Part shown: piece by piece, positions 1,311-15,500 of the stretch
How positions within the stretch are numbered: the stretch's first letter is position 1
How the letters are laid out: each line of letters begins with the position of its first letter
Source of the DNA: a virus
Length of the DNA stretch: 50,936 nucleotides
Direction: 5' to 3' (one strand)
Virus record (IMG/VR): IMGVR_UViG_3300050026_000127
Location: 1 to 50,936 of that record
Notes under the pieces: model-generated
Told to the model about the DNA's origin: nothing
Databases searched by the model: none
The model's input: the letters and a program-made list of their open reading frames with translations, nothing else
Program-made: the position numbers and the translations under genes

Positions 1311-2498
1311 ATGGCGAAGGCGAACGGCAAGGTTTCGCATATCAAGGATTTACGGCCTGACAAGCGGAATCCTCGATTGCACCCAGAACGTAATATTTCT
1401 TCTTTGGAAAAGAGCTTAGAGGACTACGGGGCGGCTCGTTCCATCGTGATAGATGAGAAAAATAACGTTATCGCTGGAAATGGAATCTTGGAAGCCGCCG
1501 CGAACGTAGGCATCGAGAGAGTACGAACGGTTGAGGCTGATGGGAATGAAATCATAGCGGTTGTGCGCCGAGGCCTAACGAAGCAGCAAAAACGTGGGCT
1601 TAGTATCGCGGATAATCGTGGAGCCGAGTTAAGTTCGTGGTCTCCTGAAATCCTCGAAGAACTTTCAAAAGAAATTGACCTTTCCAAGTTCTGGACTGAC
1701 CAAGAATTAAACGATCTTCTGCAAACAGAGCCAACAGAAATTGATGAGGGTCCGGAACCACAAATCGATAAGGCGGATGAGTTGCAGTGCAAGTGGAAAG
1801 TTAGTCTCGGGGATATTTGGAAGATGGGGAAACATCGATTGATGTGCGGGGACTCGAACTCACCAGAAGATGTATCTAGGCTGACCGGGAGCATTAAATA
1901 TTCTGCTTTGGTATTTGATCCGCCATGGGAAATCGAATATGGGAAGCCTACTGGGGAATGGGAATCTATGCTTGTGTTCACAGACGGAAGACGATTGGGA
2001 GAATCCATAACAATGTTTGGGAGTCCAACTTGGAGTTTTGTATGGGACTGCGGGGCATGTTGGTTCACTCCGAATCGTCCATTGCAATCCTCGAAACTCT
2101 GCTTGTGGTATGGAGATTTAAAAAAGTACGACATGAATGGTTCGCATTATGGAGATGCTGGCGAGGCGCACAAAGCAAGCAATTCACGTGGGTCGTATTG
2201 GTTTGTTCCTGATGATCGCGGCAAGCATCTTGCGGACATATTCAAGTTCTCTCTTGTTAAACTTCATAACAACGGATGGCACGAGCATGAAAAGCCACTC
2301 GATTGGGTGAGGTTGCTAATCGGGAATTGCACGGAAGGAACTATCTTTGATCCTTATTCTGGGTCTGGTACCTCATTTGTAGCCTCCGAACAAATTAACC
2401 GCTGCTGCTATGGTATGGAGATTGAACCTAGATTTGTTGCGGTGGCTTTAGAACGTATGAGCGAAATGCACCTAAAAATAAGAAAAGAAAAGACTTGA
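1311..2498 (+). CDS. ParB/Srx-like domain fused to DNA methyltransferase
   Basis: A 395-residue protein of the phage 'ParB N-terminal plus DNA methylase' type. Residues about 8-110 form the ParB/sulfiredoxin-like domain (DLRPDKRNPR at 13-22, then AGNG in place of the ParB GERR box). After a linker, residues about 160-390 are an N6-adenine/N4-cytosine methyltransferase: GDSNSPEDV near 180, catalytic DPPW at 203-206 and the SAM-binding DPYSGSGT at 347-354. Motif IV before motif I is the beta-class order. It probably methylates phage DNA to resist restriction or modulate packaging; the target sequence cannot be read from the gene. A GAGGTGA lies just upstream of the ATG at 1311. Its stop overlaps the -35 box of the next promoter. 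Confidence 0.85.
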   Translation: MAKANGKVSHIKDLRPDKRNPRLHPERNISSLEKSLEDYGAARSIVIDEKNNVIAGNGILEAAANVGIERVRTVEADGNEIIAVVRRGLTKQQKRGLSIADNRGAELSSWSPEILEELSKEIDLSKFWTDQELNDLLQTEPTEIDEGPEPQIDKADELQCKWKVSLGDIWKMGKHRLMCGDSNSPEDVSRLTGSIKYSALVFDPPWEIEYGKPTGEWESMLVFTDGRRLGESITMFGSPTWSFVWDCGACWFTPNRPLQSSKLCLWYGDLKKYDMNGSHYGDAGEAHKASNSRGSYWFVPDDRGKHLADIFKFSLVKLHNNGWHEHEKPLDWVRLLIGNCTEGTIFDPYSGSGTSFVASEQINRCCYGMEIEPRFVAVALERMSEMHLKIRKEKT

Positions 2499-2523
2499 CA
2501 GGATTCCAATGCCACGCTATCCT
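2495..2523 (+). promoter_or_regulatory. sigma70-type promoter for leader cassette A
   Basis: TTGACA (2495-2500), 17-base spacer, TATCCT (2518-2523). The -35 overlaps the methyltransferase stop codon. The expected transcript start (about 2530) lies just before the conserved leader at 2536, the same arrangement as the second copy near 14 kb. Confidence 0.6.
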
Positions 2524-2535
2524 ATATCTGTAAAT

Positions 2536-2583
2536 GGGTGGTGACCCACACCAGAGCGGCCTAATCAGCCGCAGGAGATTCAA
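2536..2583 (+). promoter_or_regulatory. conserved structured 5' leader, copy A
   Basis: The first 22 bases (2536-2557, beginning GGGTGGTGACCC) are identical to 14132-14153. They are followed by a hairpin GCGGC-loop-GCCGC (2556-2572) and AGGAGATT just before the ATG. In copy B the hairpin is CCGCT-ACC-AGCGG: the stem is kept but the bases differ, as expected for a structured RNA. GGGT-GGTG-ACCC can form a first small hairpin. It probably controls translation or stability of the downstream gene; no known riboswitch class was recognised. Confidence 0.6.
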
Positions 2584-3189
2584 ATGAACAACAATCGTAA
2601 TCTGAAAATTGAGGATGCTATCAGTCCCATGATTGAGCGAGCGAAAATAGCGTATCTGACGTTTGAAGAGCGCGTGACGCTGTTTAATGGCAAATGGGAA
2701 CAACCGACAGAGGAGATGCTGGCACCAGGTCGAGAGGAGTTCGACCGTCTCCGCGCTGAACTCTCTAATCGAATCGCTGACCCGGTTAACGCCAGATATC
2801 CAGTATTTGTGGACGATGCAAAATCTACTATCGCGTCGATGGATGAGGATGGCTCTGATGTGTTTTCCACGCGATTGGGCAGGCAGGAGGAGTGGACGAC
2901 TATCCTGAACGATGGCAGGCCGCAACGCGCAGAAATAAAATTGGCATTTTGTGGGAAAGGGCTCGGGAAAATCACTCACGATGAGGCGAGGGCGGTCATT
3001 ATCCGGTGTTTTCTGCGAGACACCCCAGAGGACACCACCACCGAATTCAGTGAGCTGGGACAATTTCAAAAACTCGCTCGCGTCGTTTCGAGTTGGATTA
3101 TGGACGCATTTGACGATGCATGCATGATGACTGAGGGTGAGGCTGAGGATTGGCTCGCCTCTACGCGTCCTCATTCTATCGCTGGTTAA
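2584..3189 (+). CDS. unknown protein in leader/trailer cassette A
   Basis: A 201-residue soluble protein that I do not recognise. It is acidic and helix-rich, without signal peptide, membrane segment or obvious catalytic motif. An AGGAG six to seven bases upstream supports the ATG. The gene is bounded exactly by sequences shared with the unrelated ORF at 14178-14495: the shared leader ends at the ATG and the shared trailer begins at the TAA. It has its own promoter, so it is likely expressed separately from the upstream operon, possibly early. Radical-SAM gene 3296 follows after the trailer. Confidence 0.6.
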   Translation: MNNNRNLKIEDAISPMIERAKIAYLTFEERVTLFNGKWEQPTEEMLAPGREEFDRLRAELSNRIADPVNARYPVFVDDAKSTIASMDEDGSDVFSTRLGRQEEWTTILNDGRPQRAEIKLAFCGKGLGKITHDEARAVIIRCFLRDTPEDTTTEFSELGQFQKLARVVSSWIMDAFDDACMMTEGEAEDWLASTRPHSIAG

Positions 3190-3290
3190 TCTCCGTTGAG
3201 CGCCACTCCGCACTCGTGGGGCGTGTGGTTGATAACCACCAGGGCAGAACGTAGGCTGCCCATAATCCCCTGTCAAGGGAAGGAGAAATA
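3187..3290 (+). promoter_or_regulatory. conserved 3' trailer, copy A, with hairpin series
   Basis: Starting at the stop codon, 3187-3218 matches 14493-14524 at about 30 of 32 positions (TAATCTCCGTTGAGCGC, then ACTCCGCACTCG). Downstream are further hairpins: GTGGTT/AACCAC (3225-3239), GGGCAG/CTGCCC (3242-3261) and CCCT/AGGG (3268-3279), then an AGGAG before the radical-SAM start. There is no U-tract, so this is more likely a processed or structured intercistronic RNA than a terminator. Confidence 0.5.
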
Positions 3291-3295
3291 ATATT

Positions 3296-4932: not shown

Positions 4933-5316
4933 ATGATCCGCGAACATATCTTTATGGGAAGTTCGAACGTGGAAAGCGCCCGCTACAACCAGGAAAATAA
5001 AACTCTGGACGTCTGGTTCAAGAAGGGCGCACCATATCGCTATTTCTACATTACTGAAAAGAAATTCGAGATGTGGATGGTAGCCGAAAGTGCTGGTGGC
5101 TTCTTGTCGAAAGAGATCGCGCGTCGGCATGAGCATCCCTGTGTCAGACTGGCCTGTGGGTTCTGCGCCGAAGTCCTTGACCTAACGGAGCCTTTCAACA
5201 TTTACAAGCTAGTGGACGGAACGCTGCGAGCTTATCACCCCAAGTGCTCGTCCACGATCAACGCTCAACTATTTAATCCCGAAGAACTATTGGATTCAAA
5301 GCCGATACCCACATGA
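4933..5316 (+). CDS. KTSC-domain protein with C-terminal Cys motif
   Basis: A 127-residue protein. Residues about 8-62 match the KTSC domain: SSNVESARYNQ, then LDVWFKKGAPYRYFYI and a closing SAGGFLSKEI. KTSC domains occur in phage and bacterial proteins with RNA-related neighbours; their role is not established. The C-terminal half carries CGFC and HPKC, which could bind zinc. GAGG lies five bases before the ATG. It is the last gene before the accessory zone. Confidence 0.7.
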   Translation: MIREHIFMGSSNVESARYNQENKTLDVWFKKGAPYRYFYITEKKFEMWMVAESAGGFLSKEIARRHEHPCVRLACGFCAEVLDLTEPFNIYKLVDGTLRAYHPKCSSTINAQLFNPEELLDSKPIPT

Positions 5317-10931: not shown

Positions 10932-11014
10932 AACTCCCCCCGCGCATCAAAACCCTTCCCCTCTTACAATTCTGTGGTATTCTTACGCCGAAACGATCGT
11001 GATCGAGGGTGGGC

Positions 11015-13081
11015 ATGAGCGACGGCAAAGGAACGGGAGTGAAAGTGACTGACCGCAGGCTGTTCTTGGCGGATGGCAGCCGCAACACAGACATTCCAGA
11101 AGCAGAGCAAACCATCAAACCATCGGACAAAACCAATGGCAACGGAGGCATGGGCAGGGCGATGGCGCTAGACACGTTCCGCAACGCTGTGGCCCGCATG
11201 GGAGCTGGAACAGCCTCGATTCCAGAGGCAACCGAATATGTGATGGAGAGGATTTCTCTTAACTTTTGGTTACTCCTTACGATGTATCGCAACTCGTTCC
11301 TTGCCCGAAAAATCGTGGACATCCCATCCGAGGACATGACGAAGAACTGGTGCAAGATTGCCTCTGAGGTGTCGCCGGATGACATCAAACGATTTGATAC
11401 TCTGATCGAAAGCACAGGAACATCCTCTGGGATAGAACAGGCCATCAAGTGGTCAAGGCTTTACGGCGGGGCTGGATGCCTCATCTGCATCAAAGGCCAC
11501 GAGGACCATCTTGATAAGCCGCTGGACGTAGACGATGTTGAGCCGCATTCCTATCAAGGCTTAATCCCGTTCGACCGCTGGGTAGGGATAACTCCCATCG
11601 GAGAAATCTCCTCAAGTTTTAATCTTCCAATGGACTTCGGCCTGCCTGAGATGTACAGCGTTCAATCCGCGGTCGGCGGACAAAGCTTCTATATCCACTC
11701 GAGCCGCATCCTAAGGTTCTTGGGGCCAGAGGTTCCCAAGCCTGAATTTCAGGCGCAGCAGTATTGGGGAATTTCAGTGCTCGAGCCTGCCTTCGAAGCG
11801 ATCCGCATGTTTGACAACTCGCTGTGGTCGATGCTCCAGCTTCTCTTTCGTGCTCAAATCCTGGCGCAGCGCAACAAAGACTTGACGGAGTTGATGTCGG
11901 GCCTGGGCATGAGCGAGAACGCTAGCCAGATGTTCTATGGCCGCATGGAAGCGCAGAACCAGCTTCTCTCCAACCAGAGCATGATGATTCTTCCGGAAGA
12001 TGGAGAGTTGTTCGCAACCCAATACTCATTTTCGGGGTTGGATGGCGTTATCGATAAGTTCATGCTGGTGGCGGCCGGCGCCGCTGAGATTCCCATGACG
12101 CGGTTGTTTGGGAAGAGCATCGGGGGACTGGGGCAGACGAATGACGCTGACGAGAGGTACTACGAGGAAAAGATTGCGCATGACCAAGTGAGCCGCCTGA
12201 AGCCTCAGTTGATGAAGCTGTACCCAATCATCGCAGCGTCATGCTGGGGAGAAGTTCCTGACGACTTGGCGATTAAGTTCCCGAGCGTTCGCGTAATGAC
12301 AAACCAAGAGAAAGCCGACATGGCGGACAAAGGATCTGCTCCGGTCATCGCCACCTATAATGCCGGCATGATTTCTCAGCAGACCGCGGGCAAGGAATTG
12401 AAAGAGCTTTCCGAAACAACCGGAATCTTCACAAACCTTACCAATGAAGACATCGAGAAAATGGAAACTGAGATCCAGATGCCCGGCGAGATGGGCATGG
12501 GAAGTATGGGCGAAGAGGAACCCGGTGAAGCTGGCGAAAGTGGGAAAGGCGGAAACGAAAAGGAGAAAGGCCCCGGGGAGAATACGGGACTTTTTGCAAA
12601 GCCGAACCCGCGGAAAGAACTCAGGCAGCTTGCGGGCGGCGCGATGGACGAGCGCAAGCTGGCAAAGCGCTTGACCTGGCACGGCCTGGACGTGTCCATT
12701 GAGAACCCGGCAGGATCGGTGCGCAGGGGTACAGATCACGACGGAAACCCGTGGGAAGTTACGCTCACGTACGATTACGGCTACCTACTTGGAACCAGGG
12801 GCGTAGATGGGGATCACGTCTATGTATTCATGGGGTCTGACCGCAGAGCCGAAAAGGTTTACGTTGTCCACACGCTGAGGGCCCCGAAGTTCACAGAGTT
12901 TGATGAGGATAAGTGCTTCGTTGACTTCTCCTCCGAGTGGGAAGCGCGCACCGCATTCTTTTCAAACTACGACCGGCCCGAGCACTTCGGAAGCATGGAA
13001 ACGCTAAGCGTTGGCGACTTCATCGACAAGGTTCTGGCCACCAAGAAAATCCCGAAAGCGATCACGGCGGCTGGCGATTAA
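11015..13081 (+). CDS. portal protein (DUF1073 type) with C-terminal InPase-like domain
   Basis: About 688 residues. Residues about 60-480 match DUF1073-type portals: NSFLARKIVDIPSEDM and KWSRLYGGAGCLI in the N-terminal half, then AAEIPMTRLFGKS, and the YEEKI helix. This dodecameric ring is the DNA gate. A flexible Gly/Glu/Lys-rich linker (about 480-545) leads to residues about 553-680, with DVSIENPAGS, GTDHDG, YDYGYLLGT, VDGDHVYVFMG and NYDRPEHFGSM, matching the phage 'inorganic pyrophosphatase' (InPase) domain known from polyvalent phage proteins. ATG at 11015 is used because GAGG lies six bases upstream; a GTG at 11009 is in frame. The extra domain may be carried into the virion or the host. 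Confidence 0.9.
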   Translation: MSDGKGTGVKVTDRRLFLADGSRNTDIPEAEQTIKPSDKTNGNGGMGRAMALDTFRNAVARMGAGTASIPEATEYVMERISLNFWLLLTMYRNSFLARKIVDIPSEDMTKNWCKIASEVSPDDIKRFDTLIESTGTSSGIEQAIKWSRLYGGAGCLICIKGHEDHLDKPLDVDDVEPHSYQGLIPFDRWVGITPIGEISSSFNLPMDFGLPEMYSVQSAVGGQSFYIHSSRILRFLGPEVPKPEFQAQQYWGISVLEPAFEAIRMFDNSLWSMLQLLFRAQILAQRNKDLTELMSGLGMSENASQMFYGRMEAQNQLLSNQSMMILPEDGELFATQYSFSGLDGVIDKFMLVAAGAAEIPMTRLFGKSIGGLGQTNDADERYYEEKIAHDQVSRLKPQLMKLYPIIAASCWGEVPDDLAIKFPSVRVMTNQEKADMADKGSAPVIATYNAGMISQQTAGKELKELSETTGIFTNLTNEDIEKMETEIQMPGEMGMGSMGEEEPGEAGESGKGGNEKEKGPGENTGLFAKPNPRKELRQLAGGAMDERKLAKRLTWHGLDVSIENPAGSVRRGTDHDGNPWEVTLTYDYGYLLGTRGVDGDHVYVFMGSDRRAEKVYVVHTLRAPKFTEFDEDKCFVDFSSEWEARTAFFSNYDRPEHFGSMETLSVGDFIDKVLATKKIPKAITAAGD

Positions 13082-14088: not shown

Positions 14089-14117
14089 TTGACTTCCTTG
14101 AGGCAGTTATGTATAAT
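14089..14117 (+). promoter_or_regulatory. sigma70-type promoter of the IS1595 cassette
   Basis: TTGACT (14089-14094), 17-base spacer, perfect TATAAT (14112-14117). Transcription should begin a few bases before the conserved leader at 14132, matching the arrangement at 2495-2536. Confidence 0.7.
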
Positions 14118-14131
14118 AGTCTTGTTAATAA

Positions 14132-14177
14132 GGGTGGTGACCCACACCAGAGCCGCTACCAGCGGTAGGAGATTAAA
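14132..14177 (+). promoter_or_regulatory. conserved structured 5' leader, copy B
   Basis: Bases 14132-14153 are identical to 2536-2557. They are followed by the hairpin CCGCT-ACC-AGCGG and then TAGGAGATTAAA and the ATG. The hairpin sequence differs from copy A while pairing is preserved. Confidence 0.6.
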
Positions 14178-14495
14178 ATGAAATACCAAACGATTTGGAT
14201 CAGTACTCGCGGATTTGCCAACGAGGGTGTCTACGCATTTGGAACAGAGGCGGACGTGCAGCGCACATGGTATGCACATCGTGACAACAATCCCGACGCC
14301 AGGTATAGCGTGCAGAGCAGCCACAACACACTGGACGCAGCTCGTCAGAGTGCGGGGAAATTGGTGCGCTGGGAAGAACACTCCGCGAAACGGAACGCCT
14401 ATCAGTGCAACATCTCGACATTGGACGCCTCTGAGTACGTTGGTCATCTCGGACCTGATGAGCCGGTCAGGGCAGCTCTCCGCTTGACTTTGTAA
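14178..14495 (+). CDS. IS1595 passenger ORF, unknown
   Basis: A 105-residue protein (MKYQTIWISTRGFANEG...) carried inside the IS1595 element between promoter and transposase. It has an alpha/beta look with many Arg, Ser and His residues and no recognised motif. It is unrelated in sequence to the 2584-3189 protein, although both are flanked by the same leader and trailer. AGGAG lies seven to eight bases before the ATG. IS1595 elements are known to carry passenger genes; whether this one is an accessory to transposition or cargo cannot be told. Confidence 0.6.
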   Translation: MKYQTIWISTRGFANEGVYAFGTEADVQRTWYAHRDNNPDARYSVQSSHNTLDAARQSAGKLVRWEEHSAKRNAYQCNISTLDASEYVGHLGPDEPVRAALRLTL

Positions 14496-14578
14496 TCTCC
14501 GTTGAGCGCAACTCCGCACTCGCGGAGCCTCTCGGGTGGTACCGAGGGCCGGTAGGTAACCCGGCAAATCTCTGGAGG
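14493..14578 (+). promoter_or_regulatory. conserved 3' trailer, copy B, with hairpin series
   Basis: From the TAA stop the sequence repeats copy A for about 32 bases, then forms CTCCGC-ACTC-GCGGAG (14512-14527), CTCGG/CCGAG (14531-14546) and GCCGG/CCGGC (14548-14565). A GGAGG follows four bases before the GTG of the transposase. The fold may limit transposase translation. Confidence 0.5.
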
Positions 14579-14582
14579 CACT

Positions 14583-15500
14583 GTGAGCAAATCCACAATC
14601 AGCACGTTTAAACTTTTCGAGACGTTTCCCAACGAGGAAGCGGCGCGCGTCTATTTGGAAGGTCTGCTCTGGCCTGTGGGTGTCAAATGCCCTGACTGCA
14701 AGAGCGGCGAACGCATCACTGTCCGCAAATCGGGATACTACCGCTGCAACGCCTGCAAACTCACGTTCACCGTGCGGACCCGCACCATTTTCGAGCGCTC
14801 CCATGTCCCTCTGCACAAATGGGTTTACGCCATGTACCTGATGGTGACCGCCCGAAAGGGAATTTCTTCCATGCAACTTGCCAAGGAAATCGGCATCACT
14901 CAGAAAAGCGCTTGGTTCGTCCTGCACCGGCTCCGCGAGGCGTGTAACGATGAGAACATTAAGCTGAGCGGCATCGTAGAAATAGACGAGACGTTCATCG
15001 GCGGCAAAGAATCCAACAAGCACGAAAAAGACAAACTCAAGATGGGGCGCGGAGCGGTAGGTAAGGCTCCCATCCTGGGGATGCGCGAACGCGGTGGTAA
15101 AACTCTGGCGATGCCCATTGAGAATACGAGCATGGCGGAAATTCAGAGCGCCATCCACGCCCGCGTCGAAGTCGGCTCTACGCTCATGACCGACGAGGCA
15201 GGGGCCTACAGCGACATGGATGGCCTGTTTTTCCGGCAAGAGAGCGTGAATCATTCGGCTGGTGAGTACAAGCGCGAATTGGCCCATACTAACGGAATCG
15301 AGAGCGTGTGGGCGGTGCTCAAGCGTGGCCTGCATGGAGTCTACCACCACGCCAGCGTGAAGCATCTTGGCCGGTACGTTGATGAGTTCGCCTTCCGGCT
15401 GAACGAAGGAAATGTCGATCGCCACACCTGGGAACGTCTGGCAAGTTTTGTGAATGCGGTAGCCGGAAAGCGAATCACATATAAGGAGCTGATAGCATGA
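14583..15500 (+). CDS. IS1595-family (ISXO2-like) transposase
   Basis: A 305-residue transposase. An N-terminal zinc ribbon (Cys36-x2-Cys39 and Cys55-x2-Cys58) is followed by a helix-turn-helix (SSMQLAKEIGITQKSAW) and the ISXO2-like catalytic domain with Asp135 (EIDETFIGG), Asp204 (LMTDEAGAY) and Glu240 in NGIESVWAVLKRG. It cuts and joins the element ends. Starts at GTG with GGAGG four bases upstream, after a chain of hairpins that may damp expression. The frame is intact and of normal family length. Confidence 0.93.
   Translation: MSKSTISTFKLFETFPNEEAARVYLEGLLWPVGVKCPDCKSGERITVRKSGYYRCNACKLTFTVRTRTIFERSHVPLHKWVYAMYLMVTARKGISSMQLAKEIGITQKSAWFVLHRLREACNDENIKLSGIVEIDETFIGGKESNKHEKDKLKMGRGAVGKAPILGMRERGGKTLAMPIENTSMAEIQSAIHARVEVGSTLMTDEAGAYSDMDGLFFRQESVNHSAGEYKRELAHTNGIESVWAVLKRGLHGVYHHASVKHLGRYVDEFAFRLNEGNVDRHTWERLASFVNAVAGKRITYKELIA

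Follow-up and report, generated by a model that had tools for sequence, protein, structure and literature searches.

The nearest described system to the locus analyzed here is the CUP (conserved upstream) regulon of the IncN plasmids R46 and pKM101 (Delver and Belogurov 1997, as cited in PMC6289460 and PMC5371602). In this regulon a repeated conserved block stands upstream of different small genes. According to the passages on CUP in the two citing papers, its promoters are controlled by ArdK; these passages deal with promoters and ArdK sites and describe no RNA element. A conserved structured region 5' of several establishment operons has also been described for pLS20 (EGeRS1, PMC8708921). 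Phage morons are unrelated accessory ORFs that lie between phage genes under a promoter of their own. In mRNAs of the hok type, a 3' segment is complementary to the translation start region and inhibits translation by folding back.

The window (the whole 50.9-kb stretch of DNA that was analyzed) is the record of a tailed phage with terminase, portal and head genes, not the leading region of a conjugative plasmid. Like the CUP regulon, it displays a repeated upstream block ahead of different small genes, here two (cassettes A and B). The R46 leaders, too, form two hairpins near the transcript start, and a leader-bearing gene of IncI2/IncX4 plasmids shares 48% identity (E 1e-32) with the CUP gene ccgD. 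However, hairpin 2 of the IncN leaders does not abut the Shine-Dalgarno (SD) sequence, and the window promoters, which reside in a phage, have no obvious spacer palindrome. EGeRS1, compared by description, is 400-600 bp long, belongs to Gram-positive hosts and lacks a strong promoter. The cassettes resemble morons in their promoters and in their position between phage genes, but their trailers have no U-run and so provide no intrinsic terminator of their own; moreover, a further gene that may be cotranscribed lies 3' of either cassette (radical SAM and transposase, respectively). The likeness to hok-type mRNAs lies in the predicted pairing of the trailer with the SD region, a complementarity that is absent from the plasmid members of the leader group.

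Anatomy of the two cassettes

The earlier note described two unrelated ORFs framed by the same promoter-leader and trailer, and its account of the anatomy holds. ORFs A and B show no similarity to each other, and no relatives of either were found in Pfam, PHROGs, IMG/VR, the phage collection or the plasmid collection. Their AlphaFold2 models had mean pLDDT values of 36 and 43 and were left unused. The two genes may be establishment or counter-defence genes. Each is preceded by a promoter (Table 1); both promoters fit sigma-70 well, with boxes 17 bp apart, and inspection by eye revealed no spacer palindrome in either. The leaders start with a common 22-mer, GGGTGGTGACCCACACCAGAGC, which occurs in exact form only twice (2536-2557 and 14132-14153), with none expected in shuffled sequences even if three mismatches are allowed. 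Outside the 22-mer the stems of leaders A and B keep their shape but not their letters. Both start codons follow the SD block in the form AGGAGATT(C/A)AAATG, and in both cassettes the SD is predicted to be mostly unpaired (0.73-0.78). The shared leader ends at the start codon and the shared trailer begins at the stop codon in either case. For hairpin 1 of leader A, single-sequence folding prefers GGGTGG/CCACACC with a bulged A over the register of the plasmid consensus.

Table 1. Features of cassettes A and B in the window
Feature	Coordinates	Strand	Source
Promoter A, TTGACA-17-TATCCT (boxes at 2495/2518)	2495..2523	+	sequence scan
Leader A hairpin 1, GGGT-GGTG-ACCC, register of plasmid consensus	2536..2547	+	
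Leader A linker ACACCAGA	2548..2555	+	
Leader A hairpin 2, GCGGC-7 nt-GCCGC, abuts SD	2556..2572	+	
SD block AGGAGATT of ORF A	2573..2580	+	
ORF A, 201 aa, pI 4.7, orphan	2584..3189	+	
Trailer A from stop codon: AATCTCC complementary to AGGAGATT, then GC hairpin	3187..3222	+	
Further hairpins between trailer A and SD of radical SAM gene	3223..3287	+	
Promoter B, TTGACT-17-TATAAT (boxes at 14089/14112)	14089..14117	+	sequence scan
Leader B hairpin 1, GGGT-GGTG-ACCC	14132..14143	+	
Leader B linker ACACCAGA	14144..14151	+	
Leader B hairpin 2, GCCGCT-ACC-AGCGGT, abuts SD	14152..14166	+	
SD block AGGAGATT of ORF B	14167..14174	+	
ORF B, 105 aa, orphan	14178..14495	+	
Trailer B from stop codon: TAATCTCC complementary to GGAGATTA, then hairpin CTCCGC-ACTC-GCGGAG	14493..14528	+	
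IS1595-family transposase gene 3' of cassette B	14583..15500	+	

No relative of the phage was found through its terminase, and no relative with an empty site was found for the cassettes. The gene directly 5' of cassette A (1311-2498) combines an N-terminal ParB-like part with a DNA methylase domain at the C-terminal end. Hairpins are densely packed (fold z-score -3.4) in the interval 3187-3295, which leads from ORF A to the radical SAM gene. The portal protein (11009-13081) is a fused two-domain structural protein, the C-terminal domain of which matches PF18823 (InPase, inorganic pyrophosphatase).

Searches for the leader in plasmids, phages and bacterial genomes

A BLASTN search of plasmids with leader B returned 156 records (best E 0.07), and the best matches were situated directly 5' of annotated small CDSs in IncI2 plasmids. 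In R721 and pRM13516 the same promoter-leader precedes each of four different small ORFs. With the leader of the IncI2 plasmid R721 as the query, 1385 places in 410 plasmid records were identified. They include IncI2, IncX4, IncU, IncX6-containing and Proteus plasmids, in which the leader stands ahead of unrelated ORFs. The idea that varied ORFs lie behind this leader is therefore borne out by several incompatibility groups, with several copies each (up to eight) ahead of different small ORFs. Pfam gave no informative match for the majority of plasmid leader genes; one encodes a J-domain protein. Judging by neighbouring rep, MipZ and relaxase genes rather than by a mapped oriT, they probably reside in the leading region.

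The common plasmid form consists of a hairpin GGGG-loop-CCCC, the linker AATCACCAAA, a GC hairpin, AGGAG and the start codon; the counterpart of the window linker ACACCAGA reads AATCACCA[AG]A. The leaders of IncI2/IncX4/IncU-type plasmids (R721, pRHB35-C09_4, pCKPC18-1 and others) resemble those of the window in hairpin 1, the linker CACCARA, the GC-rich hairpin 2 and AGGAG, and the plasmid cassettes likewise continue with a small ORF and a post-stop hairpin. They differ in having promoters with palindromic spacers, in the letters of stem 1 and in loop lengths, and the trailer sequence is not common to plasmids and window.

To describe the plasmid leaders as a group, we used a covariance model (R1) based on 14 of them and on no window sequence; one further plasmid leader, with a base left out, was used in a trial alignment (A2) only and is excluded from the model. 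In the 50.9 kb scanned with filters off, R1 ranked leader B first (21.4 bits, E 1.8e-4), a score that is not fully independent because the plasmids were found through leader B. Leader A, which shares 22 nt with leader B, ranked second with a score of only 13.6 bits (E 0.037). In global alignment with the R721 leader, either window leader scored better than all of 2000 shuffles in which SD-ATG was kept. The matching parts are the linker CACCAGA, the hairpin position and the SD register.

The earlier note also pointed to compensatory change in the leader hairpin. The two window copies alone cannot test this, but both leader stems covary on the plasmid alignment. In that alignment 97.6% of pair cells are paired, compared to 34-56% in slid controls, and the stems display 8 double changes vs 2.7 in shuffles, with none of 500 shuffles reaching the observed value. 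In an IncX4 plasmid (L097) the leader occurs inside an operon, five bases past the stop codon of the preceding gene and ahead of a gene for a CcgD homologue, and no good promoter was found nearby. Furthermore, the palindromes in the plasmid promoter spacers vary between groups while the leader persists. Taken together, the covariation, the persistence of the leader despite changing spacer palindromes and the promoterless operon copy speak for a function at the level of the transcript. The spacer palindromes themselves (GGTCAG..CTGACC, ACGACTT..AAGTCGT or CCGCAC..GTGCGG in L095-L105, depending on the plasmid group) are likely operators of different repressors. At the operon-internal locus of L097 (4726-4780, minus strand), leader hairpin 1 doubles as the post-stop hairpin of the preceding gene. 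We also envisaged an H-type pseudoknot for hairpin 1 but rejected it, as the pairing is not kept by the plasmid loops.

A scan of 369 gammaproteobacterial genomes with R1 produced three matches (25-32 bits) and no convincing copy: two look like chance sites inside genes, and the third (L109), which lies ahead of a methyltransferase-like ORF and has no hairpin 2, was also judged to be chance. In IMG/VR a leader 21-mer had no match. A looser leader pattern matched 22 contigs, most of them with copies of one unrelated terminator-like palindrome. A leader 16-mer also matched 22 contigs, none of them in a promoter-leader context, and the five contigs matched by a further gapped pattern all lacked a matching leader. 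Our searches, including these pattern scans, detected the leader in no other tailed phage. The palindrome, GTGGGTCACCC...GGGTGACCCACACCCCTTGGGTTTTTT or a close variant, is common to about 20 viral contigs (L009, L010, L012-L015 and L017-L030); it is conserved, lies just 5' of AGGAGA and a start codon, and is unrelated to the cassette leader.

Trailer and post-stop hairpins

The two copies of the trailer, TAATCTCCGTTGAGCGC[C/A]ACTCCGCACTCG[T/C]GG[G/A]GC, begin at the stop codons (3187 and 14493) and agree at 33 of 36 positions, with no such match expected in shuffles. The reading of the trailer as functional RNA at the 3' end stands in part. A post-stop hairpin is a general property of the leader genes, but the trailer as a specific shared motif is unsupported because no search recovered its sequence outside the window; a trailer 16-mer matched four IMG/VR contigs, all without the trailer hairpin. 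In 14 plasmid leader genes the 40 nt after the stop codon fold with a mean of -17.1 kcal/mol vs -6.3 kcal/mol in 94 other genes on the same plasmids (p 1.4e-7, a value that overstates independence because the compared genes come from few families). The corresponding folds in the window reach -12.1 (A) and -15.5 kcal/mol (B), and the best among 37 other window genes is -11.4 kcal/mol. The GC hairpin of plasmid leader genes almost always begins within ~5-13 nt of the stop codon, L101 being an exception. Lacking a U-run, the trailer hairpin does not qualify as a canonical terminator.

The AATCTCC of the trailer is complementary to AGGAGATT of its own ORF. The predicted trailer-SD duplex has -12.2 kcal/mol in cassette A and -15.0 kcal/mol in cassette B, whereas 37 other stop regions have a mean of -6.2 and a best value of -10.5 kcal/mol. 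A second calculation, which included plasmid leader genes, yielded -2.3 to -5.1 kcal/mol for these against -10.2 and -11.1 kcal/mol for the window; a single plasmid leader gene, with an altered downstream context, reached -10.0 kcal/mol. As nearly all plasmid genes are without SD complementarity, it could be a refinement peculiar to the window, namely fold-back inhibition; the other reading is a coincidence that both copies inherited. Neither this complementarity nor the resemblance to the leaders of plasmid establishment genes is present in the earlier note.

Several other roles of the trailer were considered. Coupling to the SD of the downstream gene is unsupported by accessibility calculations. 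An integron attC site was dropped, as no partner core site was seen by eye and Rfam gave no match, and a self-cleaving ribozyme was dropped for want of an Rfam match.

Proposed role of the leader and alternatives

Standing before two unrelated phage genes and many unrelated plasmid genes, the leader looks like a reusable 'start here' module. We think it reasonably probable that the cassettes are autonomous accessory-gene units, and that the leader is an RNA-level module for translation initiation and mRNA stability reused by mobile elements. Such a unit would comprise a sigma-70 promoter, a folded mRNA leader of ~45 nt, an exchangeable ORF and a hairpin soon past the stop codon. As we infer from this anatomy, hairpin 1 would form ~5-8 nt from the presumed transcript start. 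The GC-rich hairpin 2, abutting AGGAG, would keep the region from SD to AUG single-stranded and unaffected by the downstream ORF, and the post-stop hairpin would guard the 3' side. An insulating module of this kind could give any small ORF a stable, well-translated and self-contained mRNA, and would have been reused, both by the tailed phage of the window and by conjugative plasmids of IncI2/IncX4/IncU type, ahead of small genes that are unrelated and probably serve establishment or counter-defence. The proposal of an exchangeable expression cassette is supported as regards the leader before varied plasmid ORFs, and unsupported as regards a specific trailer motif and spread by IS1595.

The scarcity of copies might suggest a private event instead: promoter, leader, ORF and trailer were duplicated within the phage, the ORF was replaced, and the likeness to plasmids reflects convergent GC hairpins ahead of a good SD. 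The record does contain only two copies, and our searches detected neither the trailer elsewhere nor the leader in another tailed phage. However, the ORFs are unrelated, the promoters and the hairpin-2 letters differ, and the plasmid leaders agree with the window in linker, hairpin position and SD register; convergence is also opposed by the lack of convincing copies in the gammaproteobacterial genomes. We regard this explanation as rather unlikely. The strong predicted trailer-SD duplexes, both beyond the best of the 37 other stop regions, could alternatively mean that the trailer is a fold-back inhibitor, with AATCTCC pairing to AGGAGATT and translation of the full-length mRNA shut until the 3' end is processed, as in hok. 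With one exception the plasmid leader genes have no such duplex, and the two trailers amount to one homologous event, so that this role appears unlikely.

It is also conceivable that the conserved block acts as DNA, either as an operator or as a single-stranded-DNA promoter, and that its RNA fold is incidental. There are precedents: the CUP elements of IncN plasmids are binding targets of the repressor ArdK, according to the CUP passages of PMC6289460, and ssDNA promoters are common in leading regions (PMC11541004). Yet the block is situated 3' of the -10 box with its end at the SD, shows covariation as RNA and has a promoterless copy within an operon, and the spacer palindromes of the plasmids were not seen in the window, which makes a DNA element very unlikely. 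As for the IS1595 element, which the earlier note took for the vehicle that spreads cassette B as a passenger gene, the transposase gene is real and begins ~87 nt past ORF B. However, no terminal inverted repeats enclose the cassette above shuffle level (best score 29.5 vs a shuffled maximum of 33), cassette A has no transposase, and the plasmid leader copies looked at are not linked to IS1595. This reading is hardly credible.

Returning to the portable leader module, if it is real, a non-coding element would connect accessory genes of phages to the establishment regulons of plasmids despite their unrelated proteins, and would represent a natural insulating 5' leader that, with its post-stop hairpin, makes expression independent of the ORF. 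As far as tested, the leader is undescribed as an RNA family (it has no Rfam match above the gathering score), and its logic is close to that of CUP. A broader reading, which we offer tentatively, is that of an undescribed family of short structured mRNA leaders common to tailed phages, filamentous phages (L055, see below) and conjugative plasmids that marks rapidly exchanged establishment or counter-defence genes. Such a mark could then serve as bait to find these genes by sequence search, providing a sequence handle for unannotated counter-defence candidates (compare the regulatory-sequence approach outlined for archaeal viruses in PMC11065993).

The possible filamentous carrier comes from a scan of the genome collection. 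Of the 33 loci detected, nearly all apparently lie inside GC-rich genes (a Caballeronia locus, L035, was judged to be chance), and only L055 has the full leader context. L055 is a 5.1-kb contig in a Clostridia MAG, filamentous-phage-like in its rolling-circle Rep and small hydrophobic ORFs. It carries TTGACA-17-TATAAT, the exact first 17 nt of the leader, AGGAGAT and a 56-aa ORF, with no hairpin 2. Among 391 genomes of the same class, the 17-mer with at most one mismatch occurs only in L055 and at a single one-mismatch site. L055 may be a third type of carrier or a chance match. The contig also has two hammerhead-type sequences at its opposite ends (59-121 and 4986-5040, both on the minus strand). 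One of them directly follows the stop codon of the leader-bearing ORF, and the second copy matches Rfam Hammerhead_1 with 22.3 bits (E 0.0023), below the gathering score.
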